Shown here: in pieces, positions 42,388-64,000 of the stretch | Numbering within the stretch: the first letter of the stretch is position 1 | Layout: each line of letters begins with the position of its first letter | Source of the DNA: Basidiobolus meristosporus CBS 931.73 | Taxonomy: Eukaryota > Basidiobolomycota > Basidiobolomycetes > Basidiobolales > Basidiobolaceae | Length of the DNA: 64,000 nt | Direction of reading: 5' to 3' | NCBI GenBank assembly: GCA_002104905.1 | Contig: MCFE01000310.1 | Span: 33,725-97,724 of the forward strand | Program-made: the position numbers and the translations under genes | The notes under the pieces: model-generated | Seen by the model: the letters and a program-made list of their open reading frames with translations, nothing else | What the model was told of the DNA's origin: nothing | Databases searched by the model: none

Positions 42388-44388
42388 TCAGCGACGATAG
42401 AAATGTCTTCTGAAGTGGAAATGAAGCTGAAGCACACCACGATCGAAGCTACTACGGAACCCTTTTTTGTGCGAGTATTCCCACTCTCTATTGACAATGC
42501 GGAAGGCTATGTCTTCGTAGGGCGGCCCTGCAACGAACCTGATGAACACCGTCTCCCCGTTCACCGCCTCGGGATCCGGCTCGATCTTGTACGTTGGTGC
42601 TTGTGACTTGTCAATCAGATCGGGATAGAATATGTTGAACTTGTAGCCCTGGACAACCTTGGGTGGTGGGTTATCCACGTCGTAATGTGTTTGGTTGTAC
42701 TTGTTCCATTCGTAGCCGGTGTGAACACGGTTGAAGAACCTTGGCTTACGGGGTCGGTACTTGTCCTCCCAAAGGTAAGTCGTCTTGGCAAGGGAAGCCT
42801 CGATGTTGAAGAAATCTTCATCCTCATCCAGATCCTGTGCCGCTTCCTTCTCGTACAGGATTCGCGAAATCTCCGAGTCAAGGTCAGTTTGTATGGCCTC
42901 CACAGGCTTCCTGATTATCTCCAGTTTACGAGGGAAGAAGTGGTTCTTCTGGACATTTTGACGTGCTTGGAGCAGCTTCTGAAGCTCCTCCTCAGGGTCC
43001 AACACTGGCAAATCCCGGTCTTCACGGGGAATCTCGCTACACAAAATGGGACTCATTGCTCTGTTGTACGGTATCCCTTGCTCTACCTCTGTTGTCATGG
43101 GCTCATCAGCTTCGTCACCCTTGGCAATCTCTTGCTGTAGCGTCTCTTGGAGCTCGTGCTGTACCTTCAGTGCATCCTCTCGCTGTTTATTCCGAAGCTG
43201 CTCAAGTCTCTTCTGGATGATCACCGTGTGCATGTTTCTAAGCTTAACCTTGGCTTTCCATACCACCAGAGCCTTAAGAAGCTGCTCCCAGTATTCGGTA
43301 TCTATAGGCTCATTACTCGCGAGTTTACGGTGGATTTGTTCTTCGAGAATAGTTAGCTGTTCGTACGTTTTGTTTGACAGCAGGTTGGTTATATCGTCAG
43401 CAACTGCATCAACAATCCCGCTTGGATTGCTTGCTTGTGCCCGTAGTGTGGAGAGCTTGTCTTCGCATACAACGCTCATCGACTCCCAGAATTCAATATT
43501 TTTTGGCTTTTTCTCGAGCGTCAGATACAATTGGAGGTCGTTTTTGAGTTCGACAACATCGTCGTACTCCAGGTTTTCGAAAATCGCATACGGCTCGTCC
43601 ATACTTATTTCCAACCCGAGATCCTCGGCTTTATCCCCTTCGTCAGCGAGTCGAATGTTGATGGCCAAAATATCGATAGGCTTCGCCCGGTTCTCCTTGA
43701 TGCGAATCTCCGCACGCAACTTGGCTTGCTCTAGATGGAACTCGTCCTCCTTTGATTGCCAATCCCCTAGTGCGGCCAAATCCGCCTCTCTCTGTAGTCT
43801 AGCCTTCTCCTCTTCTCTTAATTGCATTTCAATCTCTCTTTCGGTACGTCTCTTATTCAGCTTTTCGAGTTCGATCTTGGCCTCCTCCCGACGCTCTCTT
43901 TCGCGTCTAGCGATCTCGCTTTCCGATAAACCCAATTTCGAATCTTTCTCCTTCTTCTTACGCCACACGAACTTCTGACCCAGGTTGGAGTCGCCGAAAG
44001 GGTTATCGACCTCGGTGTAACCAAAATTCTCCGCTATGGCCAGGATTTCGCTTCTTTTCTCTCTTCTCCTTTGCTCTTTCCGCAGCTTTCTCTCCTCGGA
44101 AGTTTCCCGTCTCTTGGACTTCTTTTTCTCCTTGCTTCTTTTGGATTTTCTGGAGTGCTCATCGGAATCGGAGGGAGATCGGTGTTTTCTTGAGCTTTTA
44201 CGACTCGGGGAGCCACGATCTCTATCATTTGATGCAGATCGGCTTCTATGCCTTCTGCGTGGAGAACGTGACCTTGACCGTGACCGTGACGGGGACCGTC
44301 GACTCCTTCGATGGCCATCCCTGGAATCATCTCTATCACGTCGCCTGGAATGGCGGGATCGCTCCGGGCTAACGGAGCGGCGTGGCAT
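42388..44388 (-). CDS. Cactin, splicing-associated protein
   Basis: Single exon of 666 residues. The N-terminus is an RS/RD-rich tail (residues 1-95, e.g. RSPSRSRSRSRSPRRRHRSR) typical of spliceosomal proteins. Then FGYTEVDNPFGDSNLGQKFV, a long charged helix, the mid domain (EPYAIFENLEYDDVVELKND, DITNLLSNKTYEQLTILEEQ, DTEYWEQLLKALVVWKAKVK), and the C-terminal cactin domain: KPRFFNRVHTGYEWNKYNQT, GYKFNIFYPDLIDKSQAPTY, FVAGPPYEDIAFRIVNREWE, and the terminal RR after a beta-rich segment. Cactin acts in pre-mRNA splicing and heterochromatin silencing in S. pombe. Absence of introns is notable beside intron-rich neighbours. Confidence 0.95.
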   Translation of the reverse strand: MPRRSVSPERSRHSRRRDRDDSRDGHRRSRRSPSRSRSRSRSPRRRHRSRSASNDRDRGSPSRKSSRKHRSPSDSDEHSRKSKRSKEKKKSKRRETSEERKLRKEQRRREKRSEILAIAENFGYTEVDNPFGDSNLGQKFVWRKKKEKDSKLGLSESEIARRERERREEAKIELEKLNKRRTEREIEMQLREEEKARLQREADLAALGDWQSKEDEFHLEQAKLRAEIRIKENRAKPIDILAINIRLADEGDKAEDLGLEISMDEPYAIFENLEYDDVVELKNDLQLYLTLEKKPKNIEFWESMSVVCEDKLSTLRAQASNPSGIVDAVADDITNLLSNKTYEQLTILEEQIHRKLASNEPIDTEYWEQLLKALVVWKAKVKLRNMHTVIIQKRLEQLRNKQREDALKVQHELQETLQQEIAKGDEADEPMTTEVEQGIPYNRAMSPILCSEIPREDRDLPVLDPEEELQKLLQARQNVQKNHFFPRKLEIIRKPVEAIQTDLDSEISRILYEKEAAQDLDEDEDFFNIEASLAKTTYLWEDKYRPRKPRFFNRVHTGYEWNKYNQTHYDVDNPPPKVVQGYKFNIFYPDLIDKSQAPTYKIEPDPEAVNGETVFIRFVAGPPYEDIAFRIVNREWEYSHKKGFRSSFDRGVLQLHFHFRRHFYRR

Positions 44389-45373
44389 TGTACAAACTAG
44401 TCTATCAACTCAACGCCAGGTTGAAAGAGCCAAGATTAAATTGTAGGGGTAGGATATTGTATGATAATTCGAATTTACTAGAATTAAATAGTGGGCAAAT
44501 TCCATTAACTGATTGCTTAATTTTCATGGCTAACTTATGCTTGGTAGCTCATTATTCCTCACACAATAAGACAGCCTAATCTATGTTCGTTCTATGATGG
44601 GATATATATCACATACTTGCTAACTTGGCATAGTGTGTCCTGGTGTTCAGTATGATGAGAATATCCCACTAAGGTTTGTCGATTGTCAACATGAAGAATT
44701 GTCACTCAAACTATACCTTTGTCTCTATGCCAGACGGATCGGAGTATGTAAAGTGGTGCTTATCATTTTCATTGGGTAATTGAGCTGTTGCTTTGTATTT
44801 GAAAATTTCAATAGGATATGCTTACTATCCAAATGATAGATGAAATCATATAGCAAGATTCCGACGGCTTCCGATCGATCAAAAATTATCATCCGATCAA
44901 TCATTTATTGATCAGCTTGATCATATTCATTTTCCGCTTATCGGAAAATAATACATTCGGTGGCTTAGATACTTCGAGGTTGTTTATCCAGTTAGGTGGG
45001 TGTAAATGCTTCATGTTCGCGTAATAAATAGCTTTCTATCAATTCTTCAACTCGTTGTAAATGCCCTTTTTAGCGTAATATCCCATATCAGCTATAAATA
45101 TTCAATTCAAACATTTATTTTCCGTCTAAGCCACTGTTTCCAACAGTGGATGGCTTGTACTGTGGGTGGTCGTCAGCATCTTTATGCAAAATATTCATAT
45201 TACGAGAGAGAGATCAGTTCAGCATGTGATAGTGGAGGGTAGTGGCTTGTAGACATCATCCACCTCACTGTCTCTGAGGAAATACTCTTGCCAAGTGGCG
45301 ACATGGTCCGGAATCTTCGGTAACATACTATCAATCCATCGAAGTAACCGAAGCCCGATGATAAACATACCTG

Positions 45374-45389
45374 GAGTCAATAAGAGTCA
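45374..45389 (-). promoter_or_regulatory. Paired Gcn4/CPC1-like sites
   Basis: GAGTCA (TGACTC on the minus strand) at 45374-45379 and 45384-45389, 10 bp apart. TGACTC is the core of the bZIP site for general amino-acid control. CPA1 orthologs are under that control in yeast and Neurospora. Distance to the uORF start is about 425 bp. Inference only. Confidence 0.35.
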
Positions 45390-45707
45390 TCTACATCAGA
45401 TCAATGACAAAAAAACCTGTGCGATGTTAGTGGGACCCAATTTCTTCTTCAGGAAATTGCTGAAGAGATTTCATTATCATGTGGGTGAGTTTATAGGTCG
45501 AATTGGATATATCTGGCAATAATGTAACACTTGGTGGGGTCGATATCCATGCCGATATCTATACCCCGTACCTATATTCCTCAAGGGTCAAGGGTTTATT
45601 GGCTTCATTCCACACCAACAGTAAAATCCTTTTATTTCCGAGGGATGCGCGTATCAGCCGGGTCAATCATGATTGGTCATGTATACTGAGAGCAACACAT
45701 TCTTTTG

Positions 45708-45715
45708 TATTTAAG
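45708..45715 (+). promoter_or_regulatory. TATA-like element of CPA1
   Basis: TATTTAAG about 100 bp before the uORF ATG at 45815. Confidence 0.3.
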
Positions 45716-45814
45716 CACACCAAGTGGTATACGAAATGCATTCCTCATCCCTCTGTCATATCTACCAACAGATCCTCTGACGAAGACAAAAGCAAGCTAA
45801 CCTTCAAGGTTTAT

Positions 45815-45954
45815 ATGTACATTCACACTCAAGAGAAAAACTCCGCTGACTACATCTCTGATCAAAGTATGAATAATTGGCATCTCTGGGTGTTGACGGC
45901 GGATACTAATCCCTTTTCTCTACAGTTTGGAAAGCCCTTGCCCAAAGCTGTTAA
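45815..45954 (+). CDS. Arginine attenuator peptide uORF, intron-split
   Basis: Leader uORF of CPA1. Exons 45815-45866 and 45926-45954, joined across a 59-nt intron (GTATGA donor, TACTAAT branch-like word, CTACAG acceptor), encode 26 residues: [17 protein letters not shown] then IWKALAQSC. The core DYISDQIWKAL matches the arginine attenuator peptides of yeast CPA1 (DYISDHIWK) and Neurospora arg-2 (DYLSDHLWRAL). The Asp is at position 12, as in Neurospora, where it is essential. Known AAPs stall the ribosome at the uORF stop in the presence of arginine. The spliced stop is 77 nt before the CPA1 ATG. Unspliced, the frame runs to 46087 and overlaps that ATG out of frame. Confidence 0.87.
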
Positions 45955-46031
45955 TTCACTACCAAACCGGAAACGCTACATCAACCACTTTTATAAGAAA
46001 GCCATCGCTCAATATCTACATTACCAAGAAA

Positions 46032-47349
46032 ATGCCCATCCTAACAAAGTCAACCAACGCTCTCCTTGGCAGCTCCAAGCTTGCTAGAAACCTATACTCC
46101 GTTCGTAAGCTGGCCACAATCACCGACTCTCCTGTGCACTCCACTTCATTTGTCCCTCCAGTTGTTAATTCGACCTCATCTCTTGCTGCCTTGAAGCTGA
46201 AGTCTGGTCACATCTTCAAGGGCACCTCTTTCGGTGCTTCCCAATCCACCTTCGGCGAAACAGTATTCACTACTTCGCTAGTCGGTTACCCAGAATCCAT
46301 GACTGATCCATCTTATCGCGGACAAATCCTTGTATTCACTCAACCACTCATCGGAAACTACGGCGTTCCTGGTCAAACCAAGGATGAATACGGGCTGTTG
46401 AAATACTTCGAGTCCGAAGGCATCCACTGCCGAGGTATTGTCGTCAGCGATTACGCTACCAAGTACTCTCACTGGAATGCTGTTGAGTCCCTTGGTGAAT
46501 GGTGTGCCCGCAGCAACATCCCAGCTATCAGCGGTGTTGATACCAGAGCGATAGTGCATGTTCTTCGCGACCAAGGCTCAACACTGGGGCAACTTGCAGT
46601 TGGAGCGCATGATATCGAGGCACCTGTCACTGAGTTCGAAGATCCCAATCAGACCAACCTTGTTTCTCAAGTATCCACCAAAACTCCGATCGAATACAAC
46701 CCCAAGGGAGATGTGAAGATTGCCGTTGTCGACTGTGGTATCAAGCAAAATATCATTCGTTGCCTGGTATCTCGTGGCGCCCACGTGACTCTTTTGCCCT
46801 GGGATTATGATTACAACAAGGAGGCCTCGAAGTATGACGGGTTGTTCATTTCCAACGGCCCTGGATCCCCTACTGCCCTTGGCGCCACCGTAAACCATCT
46901 CCGTTACCGCTATTGACTCCTTTAACAAGCCCATATTTGGTATTTGTATGGGAAATCTGGTTCTTGGACTTGCTGCCGGATTGGATTCATACAAGCTACG
47001 ATTTGGAAATCGTGGACACAACCAACCTGCTGTGAACGTAGTCAATGGCCAATGTGTTATCACCTCTCAGAACCACGGTTACGCTCTTCAAGATAACAAT
47101 TTGCCCTCGGGTTGGGCCAAATACTTCATCAATGCGAATGACGGCTCCAATGAAGGGATTCGACATATGAGCAAACCCATCCGTTCTGTCCAATTCCACC
47201 CCGAAGCCAAGGGCGGGCCACAAGATACGGAGTACCTATTCAATGAATTCCTTGAAGAGGTCCGTGCTGACAAGGCCAAGAGATATGGAACCAGTGTCTT
47301 TGTTGAGGAGACGATCCCTGTTCAAAGAGAAAGCATTGCCGTAGCATAG
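46032..47349 (+). CDS. CPA1: Carbamoyl-phosphate synthase small subunit (frame break)
   Basis: Glutaminase subunit of arginine-specific CPSase. Start at 46032 gives [20 protein letters not shown]...VRKLATIT, a mitochondrial presequence. The N-terminal CarA domain follows ([58 protein letters not shown]), then the class I amidotransferase: NGPGSPT, FGICMGN (nucleophile Cys), [19 protein letters not shown], and FHPEAKGGP (His/Glu). The frame breaks at about 46907: the upstream frame stops at 46914, the downstream frame resumes as [16 protein letters not shown]. One surplus base would explain it. An intron from the GTAAAC at 46890 is possible but would be short, lack a YAG acceptor and remove a conserved helix. 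The Q of the usual GHQ/GNQ triplet is Leu. Confidence 0.88.
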
Positions 47350-48340
47350 TTCCGAATCCCATCCGTATAACTATAACTATCCATACCTGTATATTTATTA
47401 AACCCATCTCCATCTTACGAAGGTAACTATATAGAACCAATAAAAAGCTCGTTACTTGGCTGAAAAGGTCGCTTTGGATTTCATGTAAGTTGTTGCGTCA
47501 CAATAAAGGAATTAAGAAGTGCCATCTTTACTTGTGGATTTGCATTGTGTTTGAAAGAGAAAGCAAACCAATATTATTGTTACCAGAAGTGCTTATCCGC
47601 GACTCAAAAGAATAGCTAAAGTAAAATCATGGCTTGCGATTTACTAGGTACCACATTAGCTATATACACACACATCGATCCTACTTTCTAAAGCTTGGGA
47701 AAGGTAGCTGCTACCACGTGTTTTGTTGGATAGTAAAGATATCCTATGAAAATAGCATACTTGGATTTCATATGGTATTCTGATAGTGTTCCACTGGTAT
47801 TTTCAGCCAATTTTTCAAGCGTAAATATCTCAGGAGTCAGTAAGCTGGCTATTGCCATATTTGGTGTGAAGACTACTCAGGCACAACACTTACTAGGATC
47901 TATGTCTACTTGACCTCAAAAGGACTAGAAATTCTGATATTGAAAGCTGTGACTAAAAGGAAAAATGGATTCTGCTGGTCCTTTGCAAGTTTTTTTCATA
48001 GGGATATCTATGCACTTGCTCTGCCACTGTCCTGAACAAAGTGCTCCACACCCATGTTCTTGTGTGAAAAGCTGGATTCTTGGCCAACTAACGGTAATTT
48101 TAGTCATATCTGGTTCAGCCCCATACTGTAAGGCTGTATGCAATTTAATGGTGAAATTACTAACGACACTCCATTTGCATGTGTAGAGACAGGAATCTGC
48201 ATTTACATGAGGTTACATAAGCATGTTGAATTTGACACTCTCAAGGGTTTAATGTCTAATACGCTTGATTGTTGGTGATATATTCATTTATTAATTAATG
48301 TTTTTGAGTGGCTCAAGGTGAACCGTTTGGAAGCTTGTAA
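47350..48340. other. Intergenic, convergent 3' ends
   Basis: About 1 kb between CPA1 and LHS1 3' ends, longer than most here. Short open frames only; no RNA gene or repeat identified. Confidence 0.4.
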
Positions 48341-61667: not shown

Positions 61668-64000
61668 CTATTCTCCTCTTCCGGGCGGAGCTCTGTTTCC
61701 CTTTGGGGCAGGCTTTGCAGGATATTGTTGGTGGAACTGGGTAACTAGTTCTTGACAATTAGTGAGATGTGTAGCTGGTTCCCATGTTTGGTCACTTGGG
61801 CCATAACCAATCCAGTCTACTAAGTAGTACAGCTTTGACCGGATATACTTGGAGTCTAGAATCTGTTTAACTTCAAATTCTTGATGTTGGTCAACCTGGA
61901 TAGCTTGGGGCTTTGCTTCTTGCCGGTTTGGCAATGTGTTCCTACAATACGGCTCCAGGAGGGACACATGGAAAGTATCATGGATTTTCATACTTGCTGG
62001 TAACTGTAGCTGATATACTATAGGGCTAAGCTTCTTCTTGATCTTGAAGGGACCAAGTTTCTTGAAATCCAACTTGTCACAAGGGCGGTTGGTGCTGATG
62101 TTTCTTCTGAGCAACCATACAGAATCTCCTTCATTAAGATCAGGGCTGGGATGCCGTTTTAGATTGGCAAATTTCTTGTAGCTTTCCTGAGCTAAGGATA
62201 GCTCTTCCTTGAGGGTGTTCTGGATGTCCTGGATTGCTTGGGCATGTTCAGCCGCATGTGGGCTCATTGGGTTTGTTGGAATCTGGATATCAAACTGAGG
62301 GTGGAATCCATAGTTTGCATAGAATGGTGTAAAACCGGTTGCACTATGACTTGAGTTGTTGTAGGCAAACTCAGCAACAGGGAGTAGATCAACCCAATTG
62401 TCTTGCTGGTAATTGATATAGCACCGGAGGTATTGCTCCAGAATCTGGTTGATTCTTTCAGTCTGGCCATCAGACTGTGGATGGAAGGCAGTAGAGAGCT
62501 TGACTTGAACACCAAGGTATTGCATGAAGTGTTTCCAAAACTTGGACACAAACTGTGGGCCTCTATCTGACACAATATCACTGGGGATACCATGAAGGCG
62601 GAAAATATTCTTCAGGACTAAAGCAGCAGTTTCTTTTGCATCAGTGTTCTTACAGCAAGGGATGAAGTGAGCCATCTTGGTCAGCCGGTCAGCCACTACA
62701 AGTATAGCATTGAAGCCACATGACTCAGGGAGGTCAGTAATGAAGTCCATAGATATAGATCTCCATTGGTGTTCTGGGATAGGCAGGGGTTGAAGAAGTC
62801 CATAGGGCTGGTGTCTGGCTGGTTTTGCACGGTTGCAAATATCACAAGTCAGAATGTACTCTTTGATAAGAGTTATCATTCTAGGCCACCAGAAATCTCT
62901 TTTGATAGCATTCAGGGTTTTGGCAGTACCAAAGTGGCCTGCAGCCATTGAATCATGCCGAGACTTAATGATGTCTAGCTGGGTGGCAAGGTCTGGGACA
63001 TAAAGCTGCTGCTTGTGGTAGATGAGGTTGTTTACCAAATGCAGGTTCTGGATGTTTGGGAACTTGGGAGGGGGCCCAACTGGGGATTCCAGATATTTCT
63101 TGATGGTGCTGGAAGTCATATCAGAGGCTTGGGATTCTGATATCCTTACTAGGAATGAAGGGATGACAAGACTTGAGGACTGGGTGGCAAGAATCTCAAA
63201 ATGTTTCTTGCTCAGCAATGGGTGTTCCATTTGCCGACAGGCATCATCTCCCTCTTCCAGGGCATATTCCTTTTTTCTGGACAGGGCATCAGGCTTTCCT
63301 TGCTTTGCACCAGGTCTATAGGTGATAGTAAAGTCAAAGCTAGACAGGAAGAGTGACCATCTGGCTTGTCTCCGGTTTAGTACTTTGGAAGTTGTAAAGT
63401 ACTCAAGGTTCTTATGGTCACAGAAGACTTTGATTTTGTGTTTTGCACCGTCCAGGTAGTGTCTCCATTGCTCAAAGGCTACAATGATGGCAAGCAACTC
63501 CTTATCATAGATATCATAGTTGATCTCTGCAGGGGAAAACTTCCGAGAGTAGAATGCAATGGGGTGCAACACATTGTCCTCATCATACTGGGAGAGTATG
63601 GCACCAAGGGCAAAATCAGAAGCATCAGTCTCCACTATGAATTGCTTCTCAAGGTCAGGGTGGGCAAGCAGGGGGGCCTTCAGGAAAGATTTCTTGAGTT
63701 GGTTGAATGAGCTGGATTGCTCCTCATTCCAGGCAAAAGGTGTGTTCTTCTGGGTAAGCTTTGTCAGAGGGGTGACTATCTTGGAGTAGTTGGCTATGAA
63801 CCTGCGATAGAAGTTGGCAAATCCCAGGAAGGATTGTACTTCCTTGACTGAGCTTGGAGTTTTCCAGGATTGGACTGAGTCAACTTTCTTTGGGTCCATT
63901 CTTGTTCCCTCAGGGCTGATGAGATAACCAAGAAATTCCACTTCTCTCTGGTCAAATTCACACTTCTCTAGCTTGGCATAGAGACCGGCAGAGTCTAGTT
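61668..64000 (-). mobile_element. Ty3/gypsy chromovirus pol, open, 5' part outside window
   Basis: One unbroken frame from beyond 64000 to the stop at 61668. In order: end of reverse transcriptase (EVEFLGYLISPEGTRMDPKK), thumb/connection (VQSFLGFANFYRRFIANYSK), RNase H (ETDASDFALGAILSQ, YDKELLAI), integrase HHCC finger (HDSMAAGHFGTAK...CDICNRAK), the D,D(35)E core (MDFITDL, SDRGPQF, FHPQSDGQTERINQ), and a C-terminal chromodomain (VKQILDSKYIRSKLYYLVDW, TWEPATHLTN). At least 757 residues without a stop or frameshift, so it is young and possibly active. The last codons overlap the polypurine tract. Confidence 0.95.
61671..61682 (-). promoter_or_regulatory. Gypsy polypurine tract
   Basis: Minus-strand GGAAGAGGAGAA, then TAG (pol stop), then the LTR's TGT. 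It primes plus-strand DNA synthesis in LTR elements. Confidence 0.75.

Follow-up and report, generated by a model that had tools for sequence, protein, structure and literature searches.

The arginine attenuator peptide (AAP) is a textbook example of a nascent peptide by which a small molecule is sensed within the ribosome. The upstream open reading frames (uORFs) encoding it in yeast and Neurospora are unsplit, and to our knowledge the peptide has been described in Dikarya, that is, in ascomycetes and basidiomycetes. Basidiobolus belongs to the Zoopagomycota or to a neighbouring early lineage.

The yeast CPA1 uORF has a poor AUG context, with leaky scanning supplying CPA1 with ribosomes, and in the presence of arginine its AAP stalls ribosomes at the uORF stop codon, a response abolished by D13N (accessible text of PMC7969011). 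In Cryptococcus, the CPA1 homolog CND01050 shows an AAP uORF that is strongly ribosome-occupied, with the main ORF repressed and NMD-sensitive in vivo, according to the available part of PMC7049704. Other leaders relate splicing to uORFs: in fungal TPP riboswitch genes and the SAM decarboxylase leader of N. crassa, splicing sets the uORF that is met by the ribosome (PMC5640933, in the portion available), and the conserved plant/eukaryote uORF group 8 shows introns within its coding sequence at conserved positions (PMC2075485, likewise in part), so that introns in conserved uORFs are already known as such. No report of an intron inside an AAP uORF was found in the part of the open-licence literature that was covered.

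The locus described here lies in a 64,000-nt stretch of the Basidiobolus meristosporus CBS 931.73 genome (the window; contig C548 of the 89.0-Mb, 1,311-contig assembly that was searched). It shares with N. crassa arg-2 and S. cerevisiae CPA1 the gene, the place of the uORF, the core DY[IL]SD.[IL]W[KR], the length class, D12 and W19 in Neurospora numbering, a weak uORF AUG and a separate stop before the main AUG, whereas the Basidiobolus uORF is split by an intron in codon 18 and its unspliced RNA has a frame overlapping CPA1. Cryptococcus CND01050, as far as its available account goes, likewise has the AAP uORF on a CPA1 homolog, in a different phylum. In the TPP riboswitch and SAM decarboxylase leaders, on the portion of the source available, splice choice adds or removes uORFs, whereas in Basidiobolus splicing would create the stalling peptide itself; unlike the TPP riboswitch leaders, window 45000-47500 contains no riboswitch matching Rfam. 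The group 8 uORFs encode a different peptide without a role of arginine, and the available text does not say that their intron cuts an arrest core. The Basidiobolus uORF is thus an AAP by peptide, gene and place with an anatomy that departs from yeast and Neurospora, and prior publication of this variant is uncertain.

Results

Organization of the CPA1 leader

The features of the CPA1 leader and gene in the window are the following, all on the forward strand:

45708..45715, +: TATTTAAG, a possible TATA element, by pattern alone
45815..45866, +: AAP uORF exon 1, codons 1-17 and the first base of codon 18, ATG at 45815
45867..45925, +: spliceosomal-type intron of 59 nt that interrupts codon 18, with GTATGA as donor and CTACAG as acceptor
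45869..45871, +: intronic AUG in the frame of the unspliced uORF, A at -3
45904..45910, +: TACTAAT, branch-site-like, seen in the sequence
45926..45954, +: AAP uORF exon 2, remainder of codon 18 to the stop, IWKALAQSC and stop
45815..46087, +: 90-codon frame that stays open when the intron is retained and overlaps the start of CPA1 in another frame
46032..46904, +: 5' part of CPA1, encoding the small subunit of arginine-specific carbamoyl-phosphate synthase; position -3 of its AUG is A
46905..46908, +: 1-nt frameshift, four bases where relatives show one codon; the stop ends at 46916
46909..47349, +: 3' part of CPA1, with what remains of the glutamine amidotransferase domain, read in the shifted frame

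The initial annotation had read this leader as an AAP uORF whose signature, DYISDQ/IWKAL, becomes legible only after removal of a 59-nt intron, and this reading is correct to the base. The intron (GTATGA...TACTAAT...CAG) occupies 45867-45925 and interrupts codon 18 inside the core, as had been claimed, with DYISDQ on one side of the cut and WKAL on the other; in a second copy of the gene an intron is found at the identical base. The spliced uORF contains the predicted 26 codons, ends 77 nt upstream of the CPA1 ATG at 46032, and is the sole AUG-started uORF remaining from 45815 to the CPA1 AUG. The annotation had further held that the unspliced frame meets no stop in the intron and runs past the CPA1 ATG in another frame: the intron contains zero stop codons in the uORF frame and the stop ends at 46087, 56 nt within CPA1 and in a frame other than that of CPA1, and the second copy behaves likewise. 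That 45815 forms part of the transcript is assumed.

Immediately 5' of the AAP AUG, a short sequence conserved in the two copies (window ~45793-45814, L013 ~1501-1525; CAAGCTA..AACCTT.CA.GTTT) looks like a branch site with its acceptor (CTACTAACCTTTCAG in the paralog copy). To judge from this pattern, the 5' leader may contain another intron, ending directly before the AAP AUG.

Identity of the spliced peptide

The spliced 26-aa window peptide matches Pfam PF08252 (Leader_CPA1) with 22.7 bits (E 6.4e-05) and the spliced paralog peptide with 25.6 bits, both above the cut-off of 18.5. This match belongs to the spliced products only: neither the 90-aa nor the 109-aa unspliced product matches PF08252 at E up to 10, a search limited by the HMMER filters, which discard most matches above E 0.1. 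The unspliced window product shows one weak unrelated Pfam match (E 0.46), and no homologue of its 90 aa was found in the protein database. The AAP core D[YF][ILVM]SD.[ILVM]W[KR][AT] fits one of the 30,864 ATG plus GT-AG products scanned on the two window strands (15,385 + 15,479; introns of 45-120 nt and first exons of at most 90 nt), which is the uORF, and a looser AAP pattern adds none over the same products. The match thus lies far outside what chance would give. At the 4.5-kb paralog locus the core fits one of 1,851 splice products.

Among solved structures, the Neurospora AAP 2xl1 alone was matched; its residues 9-22 align ungapped with residues 9-22 of the spliced peptide at 15 bits; with E 0.18 this is an alignment, below significance by itself. 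D12 and W19 have the same numbering in the spliced peptide and in 2xl1, and the Asp required for the arginine response (D13 in yeast) corresponds to D12 of either copy, which aligns with the Asp of 2xl1. Peptide, gene and place together support the assignment of the spliced window uORF, at the level of sequence, as an AAP.

A PF08252 search of the entire unspliced genome gives four weak matches, the best of 15.1 bits, and none above the 18.5 cut-off; the 14 control genomes of this search were all prokaryotes, with a fungal positive control absent. An unsplit AAP elsewhere in the genome was rejected on this result. The family thus finds nothing above its cut-off in the unspliced genome despite the two AAPs, from which it follows that searches that do not splice the leader miss AAP and other peptide uORFs.

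A second CPA1 copy and the frameshift in the window copy

The genome contains a second CPA1 copy on contig C440, with 77% DNA identity to the window copy over the coding part and 84% over the uORF stretch. Its uORF exons are at L013:1526-1577 and 1654-1682 (C440:60025 onward) and give the spliced peptide MYFHTQEKNSSDYISDQIWKALNQTN. The intron lies at the same base of codon 18, measures 76 nt (GTAACC...TTCTAAC...CTAG) and shows scant likeness to the window intron; intron and leader DNA have diverged between the copies, and the peptide core is retained. Between the copies, uORF codons 1-22 show eight synonymous and two nonsynonymous differences (pS 0.70, pN 0.037, pN/pS 0.05) and the whole uORF ten and seven, the latter mostly after WKAL (pS 0.74, pN 0.109); these rates are uncorrected counts from a purpose-written script and are rough for a uORF of 26 codons. 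Counted in the same way, the 288 CPA1 codons upstream of the frameshift show pS 0.68 and pN 0.099, and the 146 codons downstream of it pS 0.76 and pN 0.071. The synonymous divergence of the uORF is near that of CPA1, and together the values indicate that the copies are old and the peptide constrained.

The CPA1 proteins P0001 and P0003 match PF00988 and PF00117 well above the cut-off, the product is named carbamoyl-phosphate synthase small subunit, and the best named relatives are fungal. The amidotransferase nucleophile motif GICMGN is present in 108 of the 120 CPA1 relatives listed (P0001-P0120), the motif pattern having caught another stretch first in the other 12; by this comparison the GICMGNLV of the window is ordinary for the CPA1 group. 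A third CPA1-like match, on C918 (L014; 44.5% identity to P0001), was set aside: by eye, large-subunit-like sequence stands next to it in the same frame, and a small-subunit region followed by such sequence points to a pyrimidine-type CAD-like enzyme. A scan of viral contigs with P0001 gave one locus (L079, 53%), of bacterial-looking layout and with no D[YF][ILVM][STA][DE] in its three forward frames.

The paralog CPA1 is intact and open over 440 codons. In the window copy, the deposited model P0003 fits the DNA if 40 nt are skipped at the break, with the loss of 13 residues that are present in the paralog and in B. ranarum; this 40-nt 'intron' appears to bridge the frameshift and to remove conserved residues. 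Low pN/pS after the break suggests that the frameshift either arose in the assembly or is a very young loss, and the window CPA1 copy may be inactive unless the frameshift is an assembly error. In a 12-protein tree, in which the window protein is the deposited model short of 13 residues, the single B. ranarum CPA1 is placed with the window copy at a support of 0.93. By this placement, both the duplication and the intron appear to pre-date the split of the two species. The comparative basis is one paralog and proteins without DNA.

Splice signals

The window intron was compared with other introns of the genome, taken from 37 exon pairs chosen from CCT and proteasome matches: 36 pairs contain a candidate intron and one does not. 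The main counts use 22 candidates, among which wrong calls are possible and two have GTATCC (U12-like) donors, after 14 scoring below 6.0 were dropped; two overlapping pairs on C467 were excluded. Candidates gained score for GT[AG], for [CT]AG, for a branch-like site and for their fit to the profile; donor positions +4 to +6 did not count. The length is 56-74 nt in 18 of the 22 introns, a range that contains the 59 nt of the window intron, the 76 nt of the paralog being slightly longer. A G at +5 is present in 15 of 22, and the branch site is CTRAY-like in most. The GTATGA donor of the window also occurs in one CCT intron just below the score cut (C685, 5.9), and the paralog donor GTAACC, which has no +5 G, occurs in none of the 36.

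By its signals (59 nt, GTATGA, TACTAAT, a pyrimidine-rich tract and CAG) the window intron is an ordinary one, and its sequence shows the marks of a major-type spliceosomal intron: GT...AG ends, a branch site, the usual length and a restored frame. A minor (U12-type) intron was ruled out, the donors GTATGA and GTAACC standing against a GTATCCTT-like donor. U12-type-looking GTATCC donors do occur in CCT-gene introns at C335 and C467 (L035, L033), and B. meristosporus has the highest minor-intron density known among fungi according to the available part of PMC10639083.

Between 45000 and 47500 of the window, Rfam gives no match at E up to 1, and hence no known aptamer. The leaders do not fold more stably than shuffled sequences (z 0.90 in the window and 1.48 in the paralog; 167 of 200 and 93 of 100 shuffles, respectively, fold equally well or better). 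A riboswitch or structured leader was rejected on these two results. Ordinary splice signals, the lack of an Rfam match and the lack of a stable leader structure make routine removal of the intron the simplest reading.

The intron-retained frame

In both copies the uORF frame is open from codon 18 past the CPA1 AUG if the intron is retained, ending 56 nt (window) and 65 nt (paralog) inside CPA1, and its relation to the CPA1 frame is identical. The remaining two frames are closed, with two and four stops in one copy and three and four in the other. The fraction of dinucleotide shuffles that stay open over the whole segment is 0.041 for the 166 nt in the window and 0.029 for the 214 nt in the paralog; for the introns alone these values are 0.38 and 0.40, and for the downstream leaders alone 0.29 and 0.16. 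The joint chance of ~0.0012 is post hoc, and the fair figure is the 0.029 of the paralog, the copy that played no part in forming the idea of the initial annotation. Among the sampled introns, 17 of 22 (26 of 36 overall) would reach an in-frame stop if retained. Each of the two introns contains one AUG in the retained frame; position -3 is A for the window AUG (45869) and T for that of the paralog. The openness of the retained frame is at most suggestive.

Start contexts agree between the copies, the uORF AUG showing T at -3 and the CPA1 AUG showing A at -3, with the strength of each AUG judged apart from Basidiobolus' own start preferences. With this difference, some ribosomes should scan past the uORF.

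Surroundings of the locus

The nearest large ORF upstream of CPA1 is a cactin gene (PF10312, PF09732) at window 42391-44388 on the reverse strand; cactin is a spliceosome-linked protein. The window also contains part of a chromodomain retroelement at 61671-63899 on the reverse strand, with RNase H, integrase, Tf2-1-like SH3 and chromo domains. The 15-mers GATTATATCTCAGAC and GATTACATCAGTGAC occur on many contigs, mostly on one strand each; their pattern appears genome-wide 75 times forward and 188 times reverse, against 37 and 35 for the control, and this recurrence and strand bias make them probably parts of repeats. Two TGASTCA sites, which we take to be of the Gcn4/CPC1 type, are found at L013:841 and 895, ~630-685 nt upstream of the paralog uORF. 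Window 44800-46031 contains no TGASTCA, GAGTCA alone being present at 45374 and 45384.

Discussion

The locus is probably explained by an arginine attenuator uORF of Basidiobolus CPA1 that is assembled by splicing, most likely an ordinary AAP made by routine splicing. Since in both copies the AAP is spelled only once the intron is cut, splicing must precede arginine control. In the mechanism that we infer, the pre-mRNA would carry the short intron in codon 18, between DYISDQ and WKAL, and its removal, most likely routine, would give the 26-codon AAP uORF. Part of the ribosomes would pass the weak uORF AUG and scan on to CPA1. At high arginine, those translating the uORF would be expected to stall on its stop codon in the manner of Neurospora and yeast, and this would lower CPA1 translation and probably mRNA stability too. 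RNA that retains the intron could not make the AAP; its uORF would run beyond the CPA1 start, and little CPA1 would be expected from it. The initial annotation had such RNA block CPA1 constitutively. The retained frame does overlap the CPA1 start, but 'constitutively' overstates the case, given the T at -3 that makes the first AUG a weak one. The intronic AUG of the window (45869), with A at -3, would tighten the block, and that of the paralog, with T at -3, would do so less. Nuclear retention or degradation of the unspliced RNA may occur too.

Two further readings draw on the open retained frame. One of them, put forward in the initial annotation, is a regulated switch, in which intron retention would vary with arginine or another signal and the uORF overlapping CPA1 would be a second control layer. 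In its favour are the retained frames of the two copies, which reach beyond the CPA1 AUG (P 0.041 and 0.029) with the other two frames closed, the 17 of 22 (26 of 36) sampled introns that would hit a stop, the same-frame AUG in each intron and the weak donor of the paralog. However, the splice signals of the window are ordinary, Rfam is empty at E up to 1 and the folding is unexceptional (z 0.90 and 1.48); shuffles are often open for the intron alone (0.38, 0.40) and not rarely for the leader alone (0.29, 0.16), and the pattern comes from two copies in one genome only. We regard regulated retention as unlikely. Selection may instead keep the retained frame open as a fail-safe, so that unspliced RNA that arrives at ribosomes cannot make CPA1 free of arginine control. 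This needs no regulation of splicing and is compatible with the AAP made by routine splicing, to which it adds selection on the retained frame. It accommodates an open frame together with ordinary splice signals, but with the joint ~0.0012 being post hoc and 0.029 the fair value, chance or a by-product of composition could also leave the frame stop-free, and we hold the fail-safe as a tentative possibility.

That the uORF or the whole window copy is a non-functional relic with a left-over likeness to the AAP is suggested by the 1-nt frameshift in the window CPA1. This is very improbable, given the low pN/pS of the uORF (0.05 in codons 1-22) and of CPA1 on both sides of the break and the 440 open codons of the paralog, with a single-base assembly error as a simple alternative. 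The preferred reading remains the AAP uORF completed by routine splicing.

An AAP in Basidiobolus places this peptide outside Dikarya. It is conceivable, though we think it somewhat doubtful, that arginine control is gated by splicing here, the spliced mRNA being tunable by arginine and the unspliced RNA silent for CPA1, as a second layer or a fail-safe that would pre-date the CPA1 duplication. With the core split by an intron, one leader would give two RNA products of opposite behaviour, and the link between splicing and nascent-peptide control would be directly testable in the split AAP core.
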